Source: Verrucomicrobiaceae bacterium (GTDB taxonomy: Bacteria; Verrucomicrobiota; Verrucomicrobiia; Verrucomicrobiales; Verrucomicrobiaceae). Taken from it: a stretch of 64,000 nucleotides of DNA. Every line of letters begins with the position of its first letter. Positions within the stretch are counted from its first letter, which is position 1. The stretch is from positions 186,001 through 250,000 of the forward strand of contig JAIXYN010000085.1 of assembly GCA_027490195.1 (NCBI GenBank), written 5' to 3'. A model generated the notes under the pieces. It was not told the origin of the DNA. It saw only the letters and a list, made by a program, of their open reading frames with translations, and searched no databases. This document shows positions 4,878 through 14,503 of this stretch, piece by piece. The position numbers and the translations under genes are program-made.

Positions 4878-5098
4878 GAGGGCAAAGATGACCACGCGGA
4901 CTTCCGCGCATGTAGTCATGGGGCACGAGAAGGGATGGTAGGGAACCGCTGCGTCGGGTCCGTAATTTCGGGTCTATCTCCCCCGCAGGCGATCAAAAAG
5001 GTGCGCCGTCCTTGGGGCGCTGAACAGCAGAAGTCGGAGGCGTATGAAAAGGGGGAGCGCGATGAGTCAGCAGGCCGCGCTGGGACGAAGGATTCTAC

Positions 5099-5118
5099 GG
5101 ACGCGGCACAGCGCGTCC
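5099..5118. repeat. Short extragenic hairpin, GGACGCG/CGCGTCC
   Basis: In the 280-base gap between the response regulator and the SGNH gene, GGACGCG (5099-5105) and CGCGTCC (5112-5118) form a perfect 7-bp stem around GCACAG. Two further pairs are possible outside a single mismatch (TA at 5096-5097 with TA at 5120-5121). A similar GACGC/GCGTC stem occurs at 9403-9416, which suggests a dispersed extragenic hairpin family. The rest of this gap shows no supportable gene. Confidence 0.45.
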
Positions 5119-5157
5119 CTACCTTCCCCTGCGGCTCTTCTGTGATGACTCTCCCCC

Positions 5158-6381
5158 CTACTTCAAATACGGCCCCACCACGGCCTTCCAGATCACATAG
5201 CCCTTCGAATTCATGTGCAGTTGGTCTGACACAAAAATGTCCGGCTTCGGCTTTCCATCAGCACCCAGCATGTGCGGATACACATTGATGAACTGCAGCC
5301 GCTTGTCGGTCTTCGTGTACTCCTCCACCAGACGGCTGGCCTCGATCATCTTGTCAATCAGCTTCCAGCGGCTTGGATTCGGCGCGTTCGAGATGTAGCA
5401 GATGCGGCACTCAGGCAGCGCCGCATGCACCTTGGCCACGAAGGCTTTGAAATCCGCAAACACCCGCTGCGGCGTTTTCCCACCATTGATGTCGTTGCCA
5501 CCCGCGTACATCACCACCTGCCGAGGCTTGTACTTGATCACGGTCAGGTGCGCGTAGTTGAAGGAATCAAACACCTCGGAGCCGCCAAAACCGCGATTCA
5601 TCACCGGCAGTCCGGGGAAGTCCTCCTCCAGGCTCTTCCACTTCACGATGCTGGAGCTGCCGGTGAACACGATGGGATTCTCCGGCGGTGCCTTGTCCGC
5701 ATCCTTCTTCGCAAAGGCCAGAATAGCCTTCTGCCAGCGAATGGCAGAGGTGATGACATCGTAACCCGCCTCGCTAAAGTGCAGCTTGTCCTCCACGTAC
5801 AGCTCAGGCCGGGGTTGTCCGTCCGCACCGAGCAGCAATGAGAACACATCAATAAAAACGACCCCATGCTTTTCGCAGGACGCGGCAATGAGCGCATTGG
5901 CCTGCTTGACTTGCTGTACCTCGCTCCAGCGCGAGGGCGAAGGTGGAATGGAGATGAAGGAAATCGCAGTCTTTGGCAGCGCAGTGCGCACCTTCGTCAC
6001 AAATTCCTCAAACGAGGCCAGCACCTCCTCCGGTGTCTTGCCCGCATGCAGGTCATTGCCACCGGCATTGAGGTAAACCTGCTTTGGCTTGTATTGGATG
6101 ACACAGCGGTCTGCGAAGAACGCCACATCACTGAGCTGCGAGCCGCCAAAGCCGCGATTGAGCAACGGCGTGTTCTTGAACCTCTCCGGCAGCGACTTCC
6201 AGCGGCGGATGTTCGAGGCACCGACAAACACCGTCACATCCTTCGGCGGCGTTTTGGCGGCATCCTCCGCTGCAAAGGCCTGGATGTCTTTTTCAAAGCG
6301 TGCCGGGTCCACCGGCTTGACGGCTTGGGCCCAGGAGGAAGTCAGCAGTAGAAAAAGGACGGTGAAATGGCGATAATTCAT
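5158..6381 (-). CDS. Secreted protein with two tandem SGNH/GDSL hydrolase domains
   Basis: 407 residues from an ATG at 6381. The open frame extends further upstream, but MNYRHFTVLFLLLTSSWAQA is a clear signal peptide and fixes the start. Two homologous SGNH domains follow, about 25-215 and 216-407. Both keep the nucleophile block (VFVGASNIRRW; VFTGSSSIVKW), the GGND block (NAGGNDLHAGK; YAGGNDINGGK) and the C-terminal Asp-x-x-His (EDKLHFSEAGY; SDQLHMNSKGY), so both look catalytically competent. Spacer phrases such as NRGFGGS, SPSRW/NPSRW and LLGADG(Q/K)P(R/K)P are shared, which points to an internal gene duplication. Family members are esterases or lipases, often deacetylating polysaccharides. 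It is divergent from glgX. Confidence 0.85.
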   Translation of the reverse strand: MNYRHFTVLFLLLTSSWAQAVKPVDPARFEKDIQAFAAEDAAKTPPKDVTVFVGASNIRRWKSLPERFKNTPLLNRGFGGSQLSDVAFFADRCVIQYKPKQVYLNAGGNDLHAGKTPEEVLASFEEFVTKVRTALPKTAISFISIPPSPSRWSEVQQVKQANALIAASCEKHGVVFIDVFSLLLGADGQPRPELYVEDKLHFSEAGYDVITSAIRWQKAILAFAKKDADKAPPENPIVFTGSSSIVKWKSLEEDFPGLPVMNRGFGGSEVFDSFNYAHLTVIKYKPRQVVMYAGGNDINGGKTPQRVFADFKAFVAKVHAALPECRICYISNAPNPSRWKLIDKMIEASRLVEEYTKTDKRLQFINVYPHMLGADGKPKPDIFVSDQLHMNSKGYVIWKAVVGPYLK

Positions 6382-6457
6382 GGCGGCATGGCAAACGTTG
6401 TGCGTTGTGGGTCTCATGCAACCTTTGCTCACAAGCTTGAAACGCAAATTTGCCCGG

Positions 6458-8635
6458 ATGTCCACGCCTGCCCGCCCCGCTCGTGCGTCCGCCCCCGACT
6501 CTCCACCCCCTGTTTCATTCGAAATCAGCGGAGAGCACCTGACTCCCGGCGTCACGCTGCTGCGTGAAGGCACTCGCTTCGTGGTGCACTCCCGCCATGC
6601 CGTGGCCATGGACCTTTGCCTCTACGATCCCAACGACCCCTCCCGCGAGACCGCCCGGGTGCGCATGCAGCGCACCGAGTGCGATCTGTGGCATGCGACC
6701 GTGCGCGGCGTCAAAGCAGGCACGCTCTACGGCTACCGCGCCCATGGCCCATGGCTGCCCCAAAACGCGATGCGCTTCAATCCCAAGAAGCTCATGCTCG
6801 ACCCCTACGCCCGCGCCATCCATGGCACTCCAGACGAGGCCGAGCACATGCGCACCCTGCCTGATCCAAGGCATTCCATTGGCTGCATCGACAACGGGGC
6901 GGAGGCCCTGAAAAGCGTGGTAATCGATGAATCCTTCGACTGGACCGGTGATGCCAAACCTCACGTGCCATGGCAGGACACCGTCATCTGTGAGCTGCAT
7001 GTGAAGGGCTTCACCCAAACGCACCCGGACGTACCGGCCAAGCTCCGTGGCACCTACGCCGGCCTAGCGCATCCCGCAGTCACTTCCTACCTGCGAGATC
7101 TCGGCATCACCAGCGTGCAGCTTCTGCCAGTGCATCAGCATCTGGACGACGGCTTTCTCCTCAGCCGTGATCTCACCAACTACTGGGGCTACAACACCAT
7201 CGGCTTCTTCGCGGCACAAAACACCTATGCCGCCGCCACGGACCCGCAGGAGCAGGTGCGTGAGTTCAAGGCCATGGTGAAGGCCATGCACGCCGCCGGA
7301 ATTGAGGTCATACTCGATGTCGTTTACAACCACACCGCCGAAGGCAATGAAAACGGCCCCTCGCTGATGTTTCGTGGGCTCGACGATCACAGCTACTACC
7401 GGCATCACTTTGGTGAAAACGGCGCGGACTACGTCAACGTCACCGGCTGCGGCAATTCGGTCGATTCCGCCAGCCTGCCTGCCCTGCGCCTCATCCTGGA
7501 CAGCCTGCGCTACTGGGTCACCGAAATGCACGTTGATGGATTCCGTTTCGACCTGGCCGTGACCGTTGCCCGTGATGAAAAGGACGGCTTCAACCGCCAG
7601 TCCCCCTTTCTCAGCGCCGTGGCGCAGGACCCCGTGCTCTCTCGCGTCAAGCTCATCGCCGAGGCCTGGGACATCTCGCGCATGGACAGCTATCAGGTGG
7701 GCAATTTCCCCGAACCCTGGCGCGAGCTGAATGGCAAGTATCGCGACACCGTGCGCAGTTGGTGGCGCGGCGACTCCGGCGCTACCGCCGAATTCGCCAA
7801 ACGATTCTGCGGCAGCCAGGACGTCTTTGGCTGGAATCAGCGCCCGCCTTTGGCCAGCATCAATTTCCTCACCTCGCACGATGGCTTCACGCTGCTGGAT
7901 CTGGTGAGCTACGAGCACAAGCACAACGAAGCCAACAACGAGGACAATCGCGACGGCGACAGCAACAACCATAGCAGCAACTGCGGCGTAGAAGGCCCCA
8001 CCGACGATCCTGCAGTGCTGCAAACACGCGGTCGTCTCCGCCGTGGCCTGATCGCCACCATGATGTGCTCCCTAGGTGTACCCTTTATCACCGCTGGCGA
8101 CGAACGCGGCCGCACCCAGCGCGGCAACAACAACGCCTACTGCCAGGACAGCGACATCAGTTGGCTTGACTGGCACGACTGCGACGAAGAAATGCTGGCC
8201 TTCACCCGGCAGATCACCGCCTTCCGCCGCACGCATGAAGTGTTTCGCCGCAGCAGCTATTTCGATGGCAAACTCAATCCCGCCACCGGCCTGCGCGATG
8301 TCCTCTGGCTGGAAAGCGATGGCACCCTGCTGCACCACGAGGAATGGCACCAGAACACCCGCCGCTGCTTTGGCGCACTGCTGGGTGCCGTGAGCACCTC
8401 CTCCAGCCCGCTGCTGCTGCTGTTCAACAACAGCGCCGAGCCGCAGACTTTTGACCTCCCCGGTGGCGCGGACATCCTCTGGTCCCTCGTGTTCGACACC
8501 GCTCTGAACCCTTCCTTCCCTGCCAAGCCCACCCCCAGCTTTACAGGCTCCCAAACCTACCCACTTCAAGGTCAAGGCATCGTCTGCCTGACCCTGGCAG
8601 CCGGAGACCGAGCAACACTGGAGCCGAAGCTCTGA
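6458..8635 (+). CDS. glgX: Glycogen debranching enzyme GlgX (GH13)
   Basis: About 725 residues from an ATG at 6458. In-frame ATGs at 6416 and 6380 would add 14-26 residues without family-like sequence and would run into the divergent promoter region. An N-terminal CBM48-like domain (TRFVVHSRHAVAMDLCLYDP) is followed by a GH13 (alpha/beta)8 barrel. The catalytic triad is visible: nucleophile D365 in DGFRFDLAV, acid/base E402 in LIAEAWD, and D475 in LTSHDGFTLLD. The substrate-loop sequence NNEDNRDGDSNNHSSNCGVEG and the phrase GDERGRTQRGNNNAYCQD are typical of GlgX/isoamylase-type debranching enzymes, which hydrolyse alpha-1,6 branches of glycogen. It stands apart from other glycogen genes here. 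The 1.1-kb repeat region follows its stop. Confidence 0.93.
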   Translation: MSTPARPARASAPDSPPPVSFEISGEHLTPGVTLLREGTRFVVHSRHAVAMDLCLYDPNDPSRETARVRMQRTECDLWHATVRGVKAGTLYGYRAHGPWLPQNAMRFNPKKLMLDPYARAIHGTPDEAEHMRTLPDPRHSIGCIDNGAEALKSVVIDESFDWTGDAKPHVPWQDTVICELHVKGFTQTHPDVPAKLRGTYAGLAHPAVTSYLRDLGITSVQLLPVHQHLDDGFLLSRDLTNYWGYNTIGFFAAQNTYAAATDPQEQVREFKAMVKAMHAAGIEVILDVVYNHTAEGNENGPSLMFRGLDDHSYYRHHFGENGADYVNVTGCGNSVDSASLPALRLILDSLRYWVTEMHVDGFRFDLAVTVARDEKDGFNRQSPFLSAVAQDPVLSRVKLIAEAWDISRMDSYQVGNFPEPWRELNGKYRDTVRSWWRGDSGATAEFAKRFCGSQDVFGWNQRPPLASINFLTSHDGFTLLDLVSYEHKHNEANNEDNRDGDSNNHSSNCGVEGPTDDPAVLQTRGRLRRGLIATMMCSLGVPFITAGDERGRTQRGNNNAYCQDSDISWLDWHDCDEEMLAFTRQITAFRRTHEVFRRSSYFDGKLNPATGLRDVLWLESDGTLLHHEEWHQNTRRCFGALLGAVSTSSSPLLLLFNNSAEPQTFDLPGGADILWSLVFDTALNPSFPAKPTPSFTGSQTYPLQGQGIVCLTLAAGDRATLEPKL

Positions 8636-8710
8636 AAGGGGCCCTTGGACCTTACGCATACGTGAGGGATCTGGACGATTCCACTCCTCCAGAGCTAGCT
8701 GCCACGAAAT

Positions 8711-8753
8711 GGTATCAAGTATCAACCGGTATCAAATCGGTATCATTGATACC
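8711..8753. repeat. Word array 1 (GGTATCA / TGATACC)
   Basis: In 43 bases GGTATCA occurs at 8711-8717, 8728-8734 and 8739-8745, with a variant AGTATCA at 8718-8724 and the inverse TGATACC at 8747-8753. The last two units form a GGTATCA-T-TGATACC palindrome (8739-8753). An AATCCCAACCCCCGACGAG tail follows, resembling the tails after arrays 2 and 3. This is the shortest of three related arrays between glgX and the polysaccharide operon. Confidence 0.85.
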
Positions 8754-8996
8754 AATCCCAACCCCCGACGAGAAAGACCAACGGGTTTTGCCATTCAGAA
8801 CCACCCAACATGCCGCAGGGCCAGGCTCCGGCCTGTAGGTCGGCCGTGTTTGGCGCACTGCACCTTCCCACGCCCCACCGCTACCACCGCCAAACCGCCC
8901 GACTGCGAGGACGTCCGTACTCCGCGGTGCTTTCCTTACGCTCATGGACGGATGGGCTGCCGCCACATCCATCCTACGGCCCAGCGCTTCCCGCGA

Positions 8997-9103
8997 TGAG
9001 CCAGGCTCAGGCTCAAACGAGGATCATGAGCCTAATGAGCTCATGATCCTATCAGGCTCACAGGCTCACTACCTATATATAGGTAGTGAGCCTGTGAGCC
9101 TGA
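8997..9103. repeat. Word array 2 (AGGCTCA / TGAGCCT) with a 52-bp perfect palindrome
   Basis: AGGCTCA occurs at 9003-9009, 9054-9060 and 9062-9068, with a shorter GGCTCA at 9010-9015. The inverse TGAGCCT occurs at 9027-9033, 9087-9093 and 9095-9101. Two nested structures stand out. AGGATCATGAG (9020-9030) pairs perfectly with CTCATGATCCT (9040-9050) across 9 bases. Bases 9052-9103 form a perfect palindrome: two AGGCTCA words, then CTACCTATA meeting TATAGGTAG, then two TGAGCCT words, with 26-bp arms and no spacer. A GAACCCAACGG tail follows. As RNA or extruded DNA this is a very strong hairpin or cruciform. Length and exactness exceed usual terminators and no U-run follows. Confidence 0.9.
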
Positions 9104-9181
9104 ACCCAACGGAGAACTAAACCCAACGGGGACAGAAAACAGCCCTGATGGCCAACCCGCTGGCTGCCACCCAATGCCCTC

Positions 9182-9320
9182 AGGATCACCAGGATCAAAA
9201 TGGGATCATTTGATCCTATGATCCCATTGGGATCAGGATCAAACAGGATCATTTGATCCCGATGATCCTTGATCCTATCAGGATCACAGGATCACTCCCC
9301 TATATAGGGGAGTGATCCTG
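9182..9320. repeat. Word array 3 (AGGATCA / TGATCCT) with a 34-bp perfect palindrome
   Basis: About fifteen copies of (A/G)GGATCA or its inverse lie in 139 bases, in changing orientation. Forward words are at 9182, 9191, 9202, 9229, 9236 (short), 9245, 9280 and 9288; inverse words are at 9211, 9219, 9254, 9263, 9270 and 9313. Bases 9287-9320 form a perfect palindrome with an AGGATCA word, CTCCCCTATA meeting TATAGGGGAG with the central TATA shared, and TGATCCT. The two outer words at 9280 and 9288 copy the doublet layout of array 2. A GAACCCAACCC tail follows. The architecture equals array 2, but the word is spelled with A instead of C throughout. Confidence 0.9.
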
Positions 9321-9402
9321 AACCCAACCCTGAAACGAAACCCGGCGCGACATGACAGCCCGCCCGCCCCTCAGCGCGGCAGAAGGTCTAGGGCACCTCA
9401 AC

Positions 9403-9468
9403 GACGCGGCAGCGTCTTGGACTGCGGTGGCAGAGATGCACGGCGCAAGCCTGCATCGGCGGCACCGC
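9403..9468. repeat. REP-like extragenic palindromic element
   Basis: GACGC (9403-9407) and GCGTC (9412-9416) form a short stem. Next, GCGGTG (9424-9429) pairs with CACCGC (9463-9468), and inside it GATGCA (9435-9440) pairs with TGCATC (9452-9457). The compact imperfect hairpins in non-coding DNA resemble REP-type elements. Apart from this element and the three arrays, the 8636-9762 gap has no open frame with a recognisable product. Confidence 0.45.
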
Positions 9469-9725
9469 TTTAGCTAGGCGCTGAATGCTCTCCGACCTCA
9501 TCCTGCCGTCCGGCCAGCGAAAGCGGCGTCGCGCCCAGGCTTGCTGCCAGAACCTCGCCTCACAACCCGCCTTCCACGCGCCCTCCTCCACCCGCCAATA
9601 CATTGACAGCCGAGCCCATTCCGATGCGCCCAAGCCCCTTAAAACACGCTTTATACCCCTGCCAGAGCGCGGGTAAAAACCACCCATCCTCCCCCGAATC
9701 CACCCCAAATATCCCGACCTCAAGT

Positions 9726-11142: not shown

Positions 11143-12410
11143 ACGCCGCGCCCATGATCCCGGCCTACATGCAGATCGCCGCGAAACGCCGCGAGCGTCT
11201 GGCGAAGTTCCTCATCCTCGCCGCACTCGCGCTGCTGGTGCCCGCCATGACCAAAGCCTTGTACTGGGCCGATGGCGCAGGAGTCATTCCCTTCAAACCA
11301 CGCGACTACACCCTGCTCACGCTCGCGGGTGCCGGAGTGATGTCTCTGCTGAACAAGCCCAGCATCTGCCCGCCCGCTTTTTTCATGCTCATCGTGCCGC
11401 TGCTGCGCGTGCTGGATGCCGCGTTTCTGCAGCGCTTCACCATCACGGCCCTGGGGGATCACAGCGTGGTGGTGATGTCCCTGCTTTCCAACTTTCTCGT
11501 GACCTTCACCACCGTGATGCTGCTTTCCACAGAGCCATGGCGTCGCGTGGCCATGTGGGCCGCCGTTTGCACCGCTGTGCTCTCTGCCGGATGCGTGTAT
11601 TACGAGTGGCTGGGCTTCCGCGCCTTCACGCGCATCCCTGGCCGCATGGCCGGCTTTCCGGACGATCCCAACGACCCGCCGATCATCATCACGCTGATGC
11701 TATCGGTCATCTTCTCGCTGAATCCCCGCTTCTGGTGGAATGTCGCACTGATAGGCTTTGTCGCGCCCGCCATCGCCCTCACGCTCAGCCGCAGCGGCAT
11801 GGCAGTATTTTCCTGCCTGATGCTCTGCTACATCATCGGAAATCTTCGCCAGCACTTCATGGGCATGCTGCTTGTTGCCGCTGTCAGCATTCCCCTCGCC
11901 ATCGGCGGCGTGGCCATCCTGGCCCAGACCTCCACCAAGGTGGGACTCGTGACCAACAAGGACACCACGGACCGCCTCCAGGCCATCTACGAACTCGACT
12001 TCGAGCGCATCAAATCCCCCGAACGTGGCAAAGACCTGCAGGACGGCTGGGAGGCCGCAGGTAAAAAACCACTCTGGGGCCATGGCACCGGCGCAGGCAC
12101 CAGTGTGTGGAAGCCGCACAATCAAATCGTCTCCCTCTGGATCGACATCGGCATTCCCGGCGTGCTGCTCTACATCGGTGGCCTGCTGCTGCTGACTCTC
12201 CGCTGTTTCTTGGTCAAGATGCGCGGCATTTACTGCCTGGTCCCGCTATGGCTGTTCATCCCCTGCAGCCAGATTCTGGTCGAATCTCCCCACTACTGGT
12301 TCGCCGCCGCCGTCTGCTGCAATCTGGTTTTCGCGGGGCGCTTCCGCCTTGTTCTCTCCGCACCTCCGAAGACGCAGGCACCTCCTCACTACCCGCTGCC
12401 GCAGTCATGA
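11139..12410 (+). CDS. O-antigen ligase/polymerase (Wzy/WaaL-like) membrane protein
   Basis: 423 residues starting MNAAPMIPAYMQ at an ATG overlapping the flippase stop. About ten hydrophobic segments are seen. The PF04932-type core is recognisable: LTLSRSGMAVF around residue 220, followed by a soluble extracytoplasmic loop with WEAAGKKPLWGHGTGAG and KPHNQIVSLWIDIGIPG, carrying the conserved Arg, the PLxGxG element and the HN...W...G element. Such proteins join undecaprenyl-linked sugar units, either polymerising an exopolysaccharide (Wzy) or transferring it (WaaL). With a flippase before it and glycosyltransferases after it, polymerase is the better guess. The stop overlaps the next gene by 4 bases. 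Confidence 0.8.
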   Translation: MNAAPMIPAYMQIAAKRRERLAKFLILAALALLVPAMTKALYWADGAGVIPFKPRDYTLLTLAGAGVMSLLNKPSICPPAFFMLIVPLLRVLDAAFLQRFTITALGDHSVVVMSLLSNFLVTFTTVMLLSTEPWRRVAMWAAVCTAVLSAGCVYYEWLGFRAFTRIPGRMAGFPDDPNDPPIIITLMLSVIFSLNPRFWWNVALIGFVAPAIALTLSRSGMAVFSCLMLCYIIGNLRQHFMGMLLVAAVSIPLAIGGVAILAQTSTKVGLVTNKDTTDRLQAIYELDFERIKSPERGKDLQDGWEAAGKKPLWGHGTGAGTSVWKPHNQIVSLWIDIGIPGVLLYIGGLLLLTLRCFLVKMRGIYCLVPLWLFIPCSQILVESPHYWFAAAVCCNLVFAGRFRLVLSAPPKTQAPPHYPLPQS

Positions 12411-14503
12411 AAATCGCCTTCATCATCCGCGATCTCGGCCACGGCGGCGCACAGCGCCAGCTCGTGCTGCTCGCGGGTGGTCTCGTCAAGGAGGGCCACG
12501 ACGTCAGCGTGCTGCATTTCTACGACGGTGCCTTTCGTGCGGAACTCGAAGCCGCCCAAGTGCAGACGATCTGCATTGGCAAAAAAAGCCGCTGGGATCT
12601 CGCGGGCTTTTTCATCCGCCTCATCCAAGCAGCACGCAGCGTGCGCCCTGAGGTGCTTCATGGTTACCTCGCGGAGTCCAATCTCATGGCGCTGTTTCTG
12701 AAGCCCTTCTGCGGCTTCCCGCGCATCGTCTGGGGCGTGCGCGATTCGCAATCCGACGCCCACCTCTGGGGCATCCTCAGCAAGGCCAGCTTCCGCCTGA
12801 ACTGCCTGCTCGCCCGCTTCGCCGATCTCATCCTCTGCAATTCGCAGGCCGGACGCGAGTACTACGCCGCCCGTGGTTATCCGCTCCAGAGGATGCACGT
12901 CATTCCCAACGGCATCGACACCGAACGCTTCAAGCCGCAGCCGCGCACTCCGAACGAAGTCCTCACCTTCGGCCTCGTCGGTCGCATGAATCCGATGAAG
13001 GACCACGCCACCTTCCTCGCTGCCGCAGCCCTCGATCCGCATGCGAAGTTCATCATCGTCGGCTCGGGAGATGCCGCCTACGAGCAGCAGATGCGTGACC
13101 TCTCCGGCAGACTCGGAATCGCCGACCGCGTGACCTGGCTGCCCGCGCAGCACGACATGCCTGCCGTTTATGCGAAGTTCGACTGCCTGGTAAATTCCAG
13201 CGCCTTTGGCGAAGGCTTCTCCAACGTCATCGGCGAAGCCATGGCCTGCGGCGTGCCCTGCATCGCCAGCAACGTGGGCGATAGCGCCTGGATCATCGGC
13301 GACAAATCGCAGGTCTTCCCTGTAGGCGATCACACCGCGCTGGCCCATTGCATGCTCGCCTTCCAGCCGCACAATCCACGTCAGCGCATTGTGGATGAAT
13401 TCAGCGTGGCCAAGCTCATCGAACGCACCAGCCGCCTACTTTCCAAGAAGGTCCTCTGGATCACCACCGGCCTCGGCAGCGGCGGCGCAGAGATGATGCT
13501 GGTGCAGCTCATTCGCGGCCTGCCGCAGTTTCAGCACGTCGTCATCTCCCTTACCGCAGGCGGCAAGCACGCCACCGCTTTGCGCGAGGCCGGCATCGAA
13601 GTCCACAGCCTCGACATGCCCGCCGGCAAGCCCACGTTGAGCTCCCTCTGGCTCTTGTTCAAAGTAGTCAGGCAGACCCGCGCGGATGTGCTCATGGGCT
13701 GGATGTACCATGGCTGCTTCGCCGCCGTGCTCGCACGCTTCATGCGTTTCAAAAGCGTGCCCATCATCTGGAACGTGCGCCAGAGCCTCTACGATCTGAA
13801 GCACGAAAAGCGCGGCTCCGCACTCGTCATCCGTGCTCTCGCCAAGCTGTCTTGGCTGCCGCAGCGCATCACCTACAACACACAGACCGGTGCGCGTCAG
13901 CACGAAACCATCGGCTTCCGCGCCAGCAAAACGCAGCTCATTCCAAACGGCTTTGATCTCGACAAATGGCAGCCCGGCAAGCCTATCCCTGGACGCATCG
14001 GCCGCTTCGGCCGCAATGCCCCCATGAAGGACTACGCCACCTTCATCGCCGCTACCAAACTCATCGCGGAAAAACGCCCTGACACGCAGTTCATCATCGT
14101 CGGTGCAGACACCGAAACACTCGAAGTCCCCTCCAACATCCAACTCCTTGGCGAGCGCCACGACCTGCCCGAGCTCACCGCCTCGCTCAACATCGCGGTC
14201 TCCTCCTCCGCCTTTGGCGAAGGCTTTCCCAACGTCGTCGGCGAAGCCATGGCCTGCGCTGTTCCCGTGGTCGCGACTGACATCGGTGACACCCGCTGGG
14301 TCACTGGTGAGGCCGGCCACCTCGTGCCACCGGGCGATCCCACCGCACTTGCCAAAGCCTGCCTCGAAATGCTCGAATCTGGTATCATTCAAGATCCCGC
14401 AGCACGCACACGCATTGAGCAGCAGTTCTCCATCGAGAGCGTCCTGCAAAAGTTTGCGGCCTTGCTGAATTCATCCCACGCATCCCCCCTTCCCCATCCC
14501 TGA
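12407..14503 (+). CDS. Fused tandem GT4 glycosyltransferase (two complete GT-B domains)
   Basis: 698 residues from the ATG at 12407; the frame is open further upstream but that part overlaps the previous gene. It contains two complete family-4 glycosyltransferases head to tail. Domain 1 (1 to about 345) starts MKIAFIIRDLGHGGAQRQL and has PNGIDTERF, GRMNPMKDH and SSAFGEGFSNVIGEAMACG. Domain 2 (about 347-698) starts KKVLWITTGLGSGGAEMML and has PNGFDLDKW, GRFGRNAPMKDY and SSAFGEGFPNVVGEAMACA. Both keep the glycine-rich N-terminal loop and the nucleotide-sugar E-x7-E region. No linker or frameshift is seen at the junction. It probably adds two successive sugars on the cytoplasmic face; donor sugars are unknown. 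The next gene starts three bases after the stop. Confidence 0.87.
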   Translation: MKIAFIIRDLGHGGAQRQLVLLAGGLVKEGHDVSVLHFYDGAFRAELEAAQVQTICIGKKSRWDLAGFFIRLIQAARSVRPEVLHGYLAESNLMALFLKPFCGFPRIVWGVRDSQSDAHLWGILSKASFRLNCLLARFADLILCNSQAGREYYAARGYPLQRMHVIPNGIDTERFKPQPRTPNEVLTFGLVGRMNPMKDHATFLAAAALDPHAKFIIVGSGDAAYEQQMRDLSGRLGIADRVTWLPAQHDMPAVYAKFDCLVNSSAFGEGFSNVIGEAMACGVPCIASNVGDSAWIIGDKSQVFPVGDHTALAHCMLAFQPHNPRQRIVDEFSVAKLIERTSRLLSKKVLWITTGLGSGGAEMMLVQLIRGLPQFQHVVISLTAGGKHATALREAGIEVHSLDMPAGKPTLSSLWLLFKVVRQTRADVLMGWMYHGCFAAVLARFMRFKSVPIIWNVRQSLYDLKHEKRGSALVIRALAKLSWLPQRITYNTQTGARQHETIGFRASKTQLIPNGFDLDKWQPGKPIPGRIGRFGRNAPMKDYATFIAATKLIAEKRPDTQFIIVGADTETLEVPSNIQLLGERHDLPELTASLNIAVSSSAFGEGFPNVVGEAMACAVPVVATDIGDTRWVTGEAGHLVPPGDPTALAKACLEMLESGIIQDPAARTRIEQQFSIESVLQKFAALLNSSHASPLPHP

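Follow-up and report, generated by a model that had tools for sequence, protein, structure and literature searches.

Palindrome-centred word arrays of Prosthecobacter-like bacteria are probably origin-type iteron clusters of a primase-helicase element

A seven-base word and its inverse form three clusters in the window (the whole 64,000-nt stretch of DNA analysed, positions 186,001 to 250,000 of contig JAIXYN010000085.1 of a Verrucomicrobiaceae bacterium), between the next operon and an upstream ORF at 6380-8635 which, after the name given in the earlier note, we take to be glgX. Comparison with related genomes suggests that such arrays are probably origin-type iteron clusters of a primase-helicase element, the three in the window being orphans of that system. 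The reading as origin-type DNA draws on the clustering of words on both sides of an AT-centred palindrome, on the linkage of the arrays with genes for an HTH protein, a primase and a helicase, on the covariation between the tail of the helicase and the word, and on a rise in divergence that runs from the tail through the array. In the following, G000 designates the genome of the window, other G-numbers related genomes and C-numbers contigs.

The words of the window follow the general form RGKNYCA, with GGTATCA, AGGCTCA and AGGATCA as the prevailing spellings of arrays 1, 2 and 3, respectively (Table 1). Such words number 5 in 70 bases for array 1, 10 in 111 for array 2 and 15 in 146 for array 3, as compared with 4.1 per kb in the rest of the window; the arrays described in the earlier note are therefore real. 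The near-uniform spelling that it attributed to each of them stands as far as a dominant spelling is concerned, but array 2 is not fully uniform, with seven AGGCTCA and two AGGATCA, plus one further word in its tail (array 1 has four GGTATCA and one AGTATCA, counted on both strands). When folded as single strands, all three arrays beat each of 200 shuffled sequences (z of -4.4, -12.1 and -8.6). An Rfam identity was rejected: the 13 matches with E up to 1 obtained for positions 8600-9600 are all under the gathering score and correspond to hairpin look-alikes. Other repeats are also present in the window. Between arrays 1 and 2, positions 8815-8978 hold a separate interspersed repeat, which is 73-78% similar both to the DNA on the left side of the G012:C173 element and to part of G000:C92, and positions ~4931-5127 are part of a further repeat common to several loci of G000 and related genomes.

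Table 1. Array features of the window, numbered from its first nucleotide.
Feature	Position	Strand	Description
Array 1	8711..8765	+	orphan; GGTATCA/TGATACC; no central TATATA palindrome in the window's genome; tail AATCCCAACCC
Array 2 and tail	9001..9133 (words ~9001-9115)	+	orphan; mostly AGGCTCA/TGAGCCT
Left hairpin of array 2	9020..9050	.	12-nt arms, 7-nt loop
Perfect palindrome of array 2	9052..9103	.	26-nt arms, centre TATATATA; proposed melting site between words
Array 3 and tail	9181..9333 (words ~9181-9328)	+	orphan; mostly AGGATCA, GGGATCA and inverses
Perfect palindrome of array 3	9287..9320	.	17-nt arms, centre TATATA

The arrays form a multi-locus family with a single plan, in which RGKNYCA words in both orientations are arranged around a perfect or near-perfect palindrome centred on TATATA. 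At least 35 arrays of this plan occur in seven related Prosthecobacter-like genomes, and the palindromes mostly measure 32-62 bp, with words inside their arms. A strict pattern run over 56 genomes (G000 included) matched the window's copy alone; being too strict, it gives no evidence of absence, and a search with the 12-mer CCTATATATAGG was used instead. This 12-mer is present in 10 of 68 family genomes. As read by eye, all of its 35 places in seven genomes fall in arrays, and the single places in G032, G083 and G084 lie outside arrays. Further G000 arrays with the same order of parts were found by the tail pattern and then by the palindrome pattern. The scan of the genome and its relatives that the earlier note had proposed thus uncovers a family of many loci, each copy with its own spelling. 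Within arrays, the three variable core letters agree in 653 of 906 word pairs, as compared with an expected 17% and with at most 23% in 2000 shuffles. This count covers 35 arrays, which do not coincide exactly with the 35 places of the 12-mer, and is restricted to left halves to avoid scoring palindrome arms twice; it omits the half arrays at contig ends (G012:C104 and C173a), the palindrome-less array 1 of the window, the broken array of G027:C18 and the contig-end array of G001:C144. Contigs end at or near arrays at G012:C104, C173 and C184, as is expected of repeated palindromes, and array counts are lower bounds. In two genomes, repeated DNA close to arrays contains IS200-like Y1 transposase genes (L034:15944-16486 and L070:12772-13239), which are 94% identical.

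The complete unit is ~3 kb long and consists, in this order, of genes for an excisionase-like HTH protein, a Toprim primase and an AAA_25 helicase, followed by the array. In G000, the array of C24 lies directly behind the gene of a P-loop ATPase, with genes for a Toprim primase (Toprim_2, E 1.6e-8) and a small HTH protein (HTH_17, 9.6e-8; excisionase domain, 7.7e-7) upstream. The ATPase is named a putative helicase by similarity, through weak matches to AAA_25 (E 6e-6, 0.6 bits below the Pfam cut-off) and phrog_239 (4e-5) and 28-31% identity to plasmid proteins, mostly annotated as primase/helicase. The helicase has no match in NCBIfam, its profile finds none among solved-structure sequences at E 0.01, and no phage record matches it at E 1e-8; six viral contigs show 26-28% identity. 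For the primase, PADLOC gives only a weak DnaG-like match. Five full-element stretches have no Rfam match at the gathering score. Six public records matched by the helicase alignment are Prosthecobacter, Verrucomicrobiaceae or Verrucomicrobia metagenome assemblies.

The helicase is present in 8 of 68 family genomes, all within one of 11 genera, and these eight include the seven genomes where CCTATATATAGG always falls in arrays. Because the other six main carriers are the six nearest to G000 by glgX identity among 17 other genomes searched, this co-occurrence may be a single event. Wherever the end of a genus copy can be read, which is the case for ten copies, some complete and some decayed, the first word stands 6-21 nt past the helicase stop. 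A series of decay leads from complete units to units deleted mid-way, to helicase tails only and finally to arrays alone. The dN/dS values of the helicase (0.13-0.30 over 15 pairs, with no internal stop) and of the primase (0.30-0.49) indicate constraint on both genes. A conserved leader of ~150 nt is found upstream of the HTH gene at L034:5605-5760 and in six other elements (L068, L069, L070, L071, L075, L076). It contains a box resembling TTGACTTT and two repeats resembling GTGAAGAAC, has a consensus fold of -28 kcal/mol in which double changes support 2 of 34 pairs, and has no match in Rfam (stretch L034:5480-5860). The leader may serve as promoter and for copy control.

Cyanobacterial STRR heptamers, REP/BIME and MITE repeats are also short words or palindromes repeated between genes. 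To our knowledge, they are not tied to a site behind a helicase gene, and we know of no covariation of such repeats with a reading domain. The earlier likening of the arrays to STRR heptamers misses the main point, which is that they are the downstream part of a primase-helicase element, laid out like a known type of origin.

The known type is that of the PICIs. As described in the available sections of the source, they have their origin directly on the 3' side of the initiator gene, where an AT-rich site is flanked by two sets of iterons, a layout that, according to the authors, no other known bacterial replicon has (PMC6092414). In SaPIs, the accessible part of a second source has the Rep helicase reading the downstream iterons with its C-terminal domain (PMC7581432). 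The resemblance to these systems, as far as the two excerpts describe them, is one of layout alone: an array directly 3' of a helicase gene, a primase beside it and two word sets around an AT-rich centre (PMC6092414; PMC7581432). Here, however, the words lie within the arms of a long perfect palindrome, the helicase is of the AAA_25 type, array-only copies exist in the chromosome and the host belongs to the Verrucomicrobiota. Moreover, neither an integrase nor TerS was found beside the genus element. A search for integrase PF00589 in G000, G011, G012 and G027 gave none beside an intact element (the nearest is ~16 kb off, on G011:C79), and one TerS small-subunit query had no match in 34 genus stretches. 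Since no integrase was found near it, the genus element is not called a PICI. The same place behind the operon could also be that of an operator, a terminator or a partition site, which the tail would bind for autoregulation or segregation. A strong hairpin right behind the operon could indeed end transcription, and a winged helix fits any such role. We consider this alternative unlikely, however, because the position, the two-sided word clusters and the AT centre match the published PICI origin layout, because about ten words on both sides are more than a terminator needs, and because no T run follows the palindromes that were read.

The tail of the helicase is predicted to be winged-helix-like by AlphaFold2 (pLDDT 86.8 alone and 79-88 inside a full model of mean 49.8). 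Among PDB structures, no one fold is clearly closest to it: Foldseek gave no match at E 0.001, and the best Z with VIA, 7.9, is below the safe level, no bacterial replication-initiator domain being recognised among the 50 matches listed. The residues just before the AKRRI motif, which open the predicted recognition helix, go with the spelling of the word. Thus, EPT goes with AGGATCA (three elements, two loci), EST with AGGGTCA (two elements), ESS or ASS with GGGTTCA (two elements), PAT with AGGCTCA, ERS with AGGGCCA and VAT with GGTATCA. In a second family, f2, ER(T/A) is found with GTGCA words (three elements), (P/I)KT with ACCCT words (three elements, two of them nearly the same) and a different tail, common to three elements, with GGGAAA. 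In a partial Mantel test over ten genus elements, framed after these correspondences had been seen, with the core as control and no phylogeny model, the distance between words correlates with that between tails (r 0.69, or 0.72 once the core is partialled out; 0 of 5000 permutations for each). Leaving out one orthologue (nine elements) gives a partial r of 0.63 (p 0.0016), and the correlation of word distance with that of the adjacent helicase core is -0.29 (p 0.91). One same-word pair speaks against this: the tails of C24 and G029:C15 (GGGTTCA) differ at 14 of 49 positions and are thus no closer than those of C24 and G011, which has another word and differs at 13 of 49. Divergence of the helicase tail appears to track the word, while divergence of the core does not. 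A recent passing of tail plus array between same-word loci is unsupported, synonymous differences amounting to 24-42% of shared codons for the same word as compared with 19-52% for different words. As in iteron-type replicons, multiple copies of one word stand near an AT-rich centre where the DNA may be unwound; the covariation and the predicted winged helix point, indirectly, to binding of the words by the putative initiator.

Locus I offers a view of how the word may change in place. An element is found at the same position in four genomes, beside a gene that, by its motifs, would encode an FAD-dependent oxidoreductase, and its words are GGGTTCA in G000, AGGGCCA in G011, GGTATCA in G027 and AGGATCA in G020. 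The dS of the element is close to that of the neighbouring gene in three pairs (0.402/0.332, 0.346/0.320 and 0.254/0.223), which suggests that the element was probably inherited vertically. Identity, 71-98% over the first 1020 nt of the helicase, drops abruptly to 53-80% over tail and array and is 75-100% in the neighbouring gene. Past the array, it returns to 84-88% for G027-G020; in the other five of the six pairs, this intergenic DNA is also diverged or unalignable up to the neighbouring gene, which leaves the divergent island without a clear boundary on the right. Among the four genomes, dS reaches 0.8-1.3 in the tail, a rough value owing to multiple hits in a stretch of 46 codons, as compared with 0.19-0.37 in the core (excluding five G001 rows misaligned by one codon and the pooled core figure). 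The dN/dS of the tail, 0.15-0.27, gives no sign of positive selection. Drift of the spellings in place was considered and dropped, since the raised dS of the tail and the drop in identity favour a replacement of tail plus array. The simplest reading of these comparisons is that both were replaced together, from diverged donors.

Outside this set of words, helicase relatives have arrays of other spellings. In G032, of the same genus, the helicase is 57% identical and the word, ACCGTC, is unrelated. The helicase profile matched 29 of 386 genomes of the order, an even draw from a larger group. In f2, other words (GGTGCAA, GTGCAA, ACCCTCA, TACCCT) stand behind the helicase, often with a TATA-loop hairpin. 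A word-blind test measured the word excess in the 220 nt behind the helicase stop against 300 shuffles; two of 28 entries were omitted, having no downstream sequence. In the genus, all six elements, G032 included, reach 0/300. Outside it, seven of 18 do so, all of them f2 and with unrelated words (the arrays of G297 and G202 are nearly the same and not independent), two more are at 1/300 (in G141 the top 6-mer is not part of the array) and two more lie between 2% and 5%. The remaining seven of the 18, including G121 of family f3, show no word excess, although by eye the TATA-loop hairpin is still present in four of them. Two Bacteroidota plasmid relatives have neither word excess nor TATA-loop hairpin. 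By family match, a tyrosine integrase occurs near the helicase in at least three f2 stretches, and TerS-like genes occur near two f2 relatives (one clear, 1.8e-7; one weak, 0.0017); with these genes, the f2 elements concerned look like satellites. Some small f2 genes (L175:9219-9836, 12398-12847 and 13485-14081; L180:3189-3668) have no Pfam match and at most a weak match to a PHROG of unknown function; it is possible that they are interference or regulatory genes.

At the glgX site, 18 genomes were searched and 10 read. Of the seven main carriers, six have array 1 there; three of these (G012, G027, G020) keep its palindrome and three, including G000, lack it. Array 2 is also found in G001 and, shortened, in G020; its palindrome has AGGCTCA in the window and AGGATCA in G001, the left part being largely common. 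Array 3 has a counterpart in the part of the G020 stretch that was read. In G022, G007, G029 and G032, the stretch read at this site holds no array. The earlier proposal that a cassette was copied within these 610 bases is not supported; arrays at the same places are present in related genomes. Nor are the alike tails, then taken as a mark of such copying, a sign of it, since they belong to a unit that recurs at other loci. No helicase remnant is recognisable within 3.6 kb upstream of any of the three window arrays. Their spellings all differ from GGGTTCA, that of the one intact helicase found in G000, and that of array 3, AGGATCA, is the spelling of a helicase remnant at C39.

Orthologous orphan arrays differ coherently in spelling between genomes, in agreement with the homogenised family that had been suggested. 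At locus III, the word is GGTGCCA, GGTATCA or GGGGCCA in four genomes, and the flanking TTGG and CCAAA are unchanged. Over seven loci (24 non-independent pairs), 122 of 141 differing positions of orthologous palindromes are changed on both arms and still pair; for orphan loci alone, the figure is 60 of 75. Hence, evolution of the palindromes is concerted, whether through selection, conversion or a correction based on the hairpin. Neutral repeats that homogenise themselves by slippage and hairpin template switching, with no protein reader, would also keep near-perfect palindromes in helicase-less orphans, change both arms together, even if the pairs counted share sequences, and alter the words of locus III within constant flanks. 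As a full account of the arrays we find this very improbable, for it leaves unexplained both their fixed place behind the helicase and the covariation of tail and word. Such homogenisation may well act on orphans in addition.

Two sequence comparisons support the view that arrays have been gained at new sites. At the C92 site, G000 has an array and eight other genomes have no word cluster; at the C72 site, an array is present in G000 and G011 and absent in six others (in G012, the 322 nt that remain before the contig ends hold none). The GGGTTCA arrays of C72 and C92 are 97% and 92% identical to the C24 array, and the similar stretch extends no further than array plus tail (162 bp between C24 and C72, 233 bp between C72 and C92). 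As helicase remnants are lacking, these two probably came as array-only units rather than as decayed full elements. Such filled and empty sites would also be expected if the arrays were palindromic repeats of the REP or MITE kind, mobilised by a transposase such as an IS200-like Y1 enzyme, the link with the helicase then being secondary, and a Y1_Tnp gene does lie ~7.4 kb from the C24 array, with a 94% identical copy ~1.2 kb from the second array of G012:C173. This appears improbable to us: arrays stand behind the helicase in two families whose words are unrelated, its tail varies together with the word, Y1 matches occur in just 3 of the 34 stretches searched (one at 35% identity), and neither target duplication nor transposon end was identified.

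For the preferred reading, origin-type iteron clusters of a primase-helicase element, the following mechanism can be proposed. The C-terminal winged helix of the helicase would bind the words, the helicase would load on both sides, the TATATATA centre would melt, and the primase would then prime replication of the element. The spelling of the word would act as a specificity key, and the tail-coding end would be exchanged with the array as a unit. The window arrays would be array-only copies, or relics of decayed elements. We also put forward, more tentatively, the possibility that tail and array make up a lock-and-key cassette whose swapping as a unit lets a resident replicon change specificity in one step, orphans being origin-only units that a matching helicase replicates in trans, and thereby parasites of the satellite. 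If this were true, the mixed spellings of the orphans would be a fossil record of past helicases.

Several other systems share parts of this organisation, as far as the available portions of the sources describe them (for other satellite and plasmid origins, see PMC7145576 and PMC4234260). In SCCmec, Cch2 is likewise a helicase with short repeats just downstream of its gene, in a putative origin, which its C-terminal part binds; there, the helicase is annotated to another family, three iterons replace the ~ten words found here and, in the text available, no spelling series appears (PMC7581432). The origin of the crenarchaeal plasmid pRN1, a 100-bp stem-loop downstream of the replication gene, resembles the arrays in that structure is kept while sequence varies, and its protein has a C-terminal winged helix, as is predicted here; pRN1, however, joins an archaeo-eukaryotic primase and an SF3 helicase in one protein and, in the part of the source at hand, shows no iteron structure (PMC4234260). 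The alpha protein of phage P4 is also a primase-helicase with a cognate origin, according to the excerpt available (PMC6092414), but it is a single fused protein. The literature covered, with most subscription journals outside the search, contained no description of such arrays in Verrucomicrobiota and nothing of substance on Verrucomicrobiota iterons or phage satellites, on Prosthecobacter palindromic repeats or on iteron coevolution. The combination of words inside a long palindrome, a series of words and recognition helices, an apparent block exchange of reader and words, and orphan arrays appears to be new.

The genus provides a natural series of an origin word and its putative reading helix (GGGTTCA, AGGGTCA, AGGATCA, AGGCTCA, AGGGCCA and GGTATCA, with unrelated words further out), which makes an initiator-iteron recognition code directly testable. 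It also points to a way in which a replicon might acquire a new key and stay functional, namely by exchange of reader and words in one piece. Finally, origin-type DNA would be scattered in these chromosomes as orphans, which can be mistaken for ordinary intergenic repeats.
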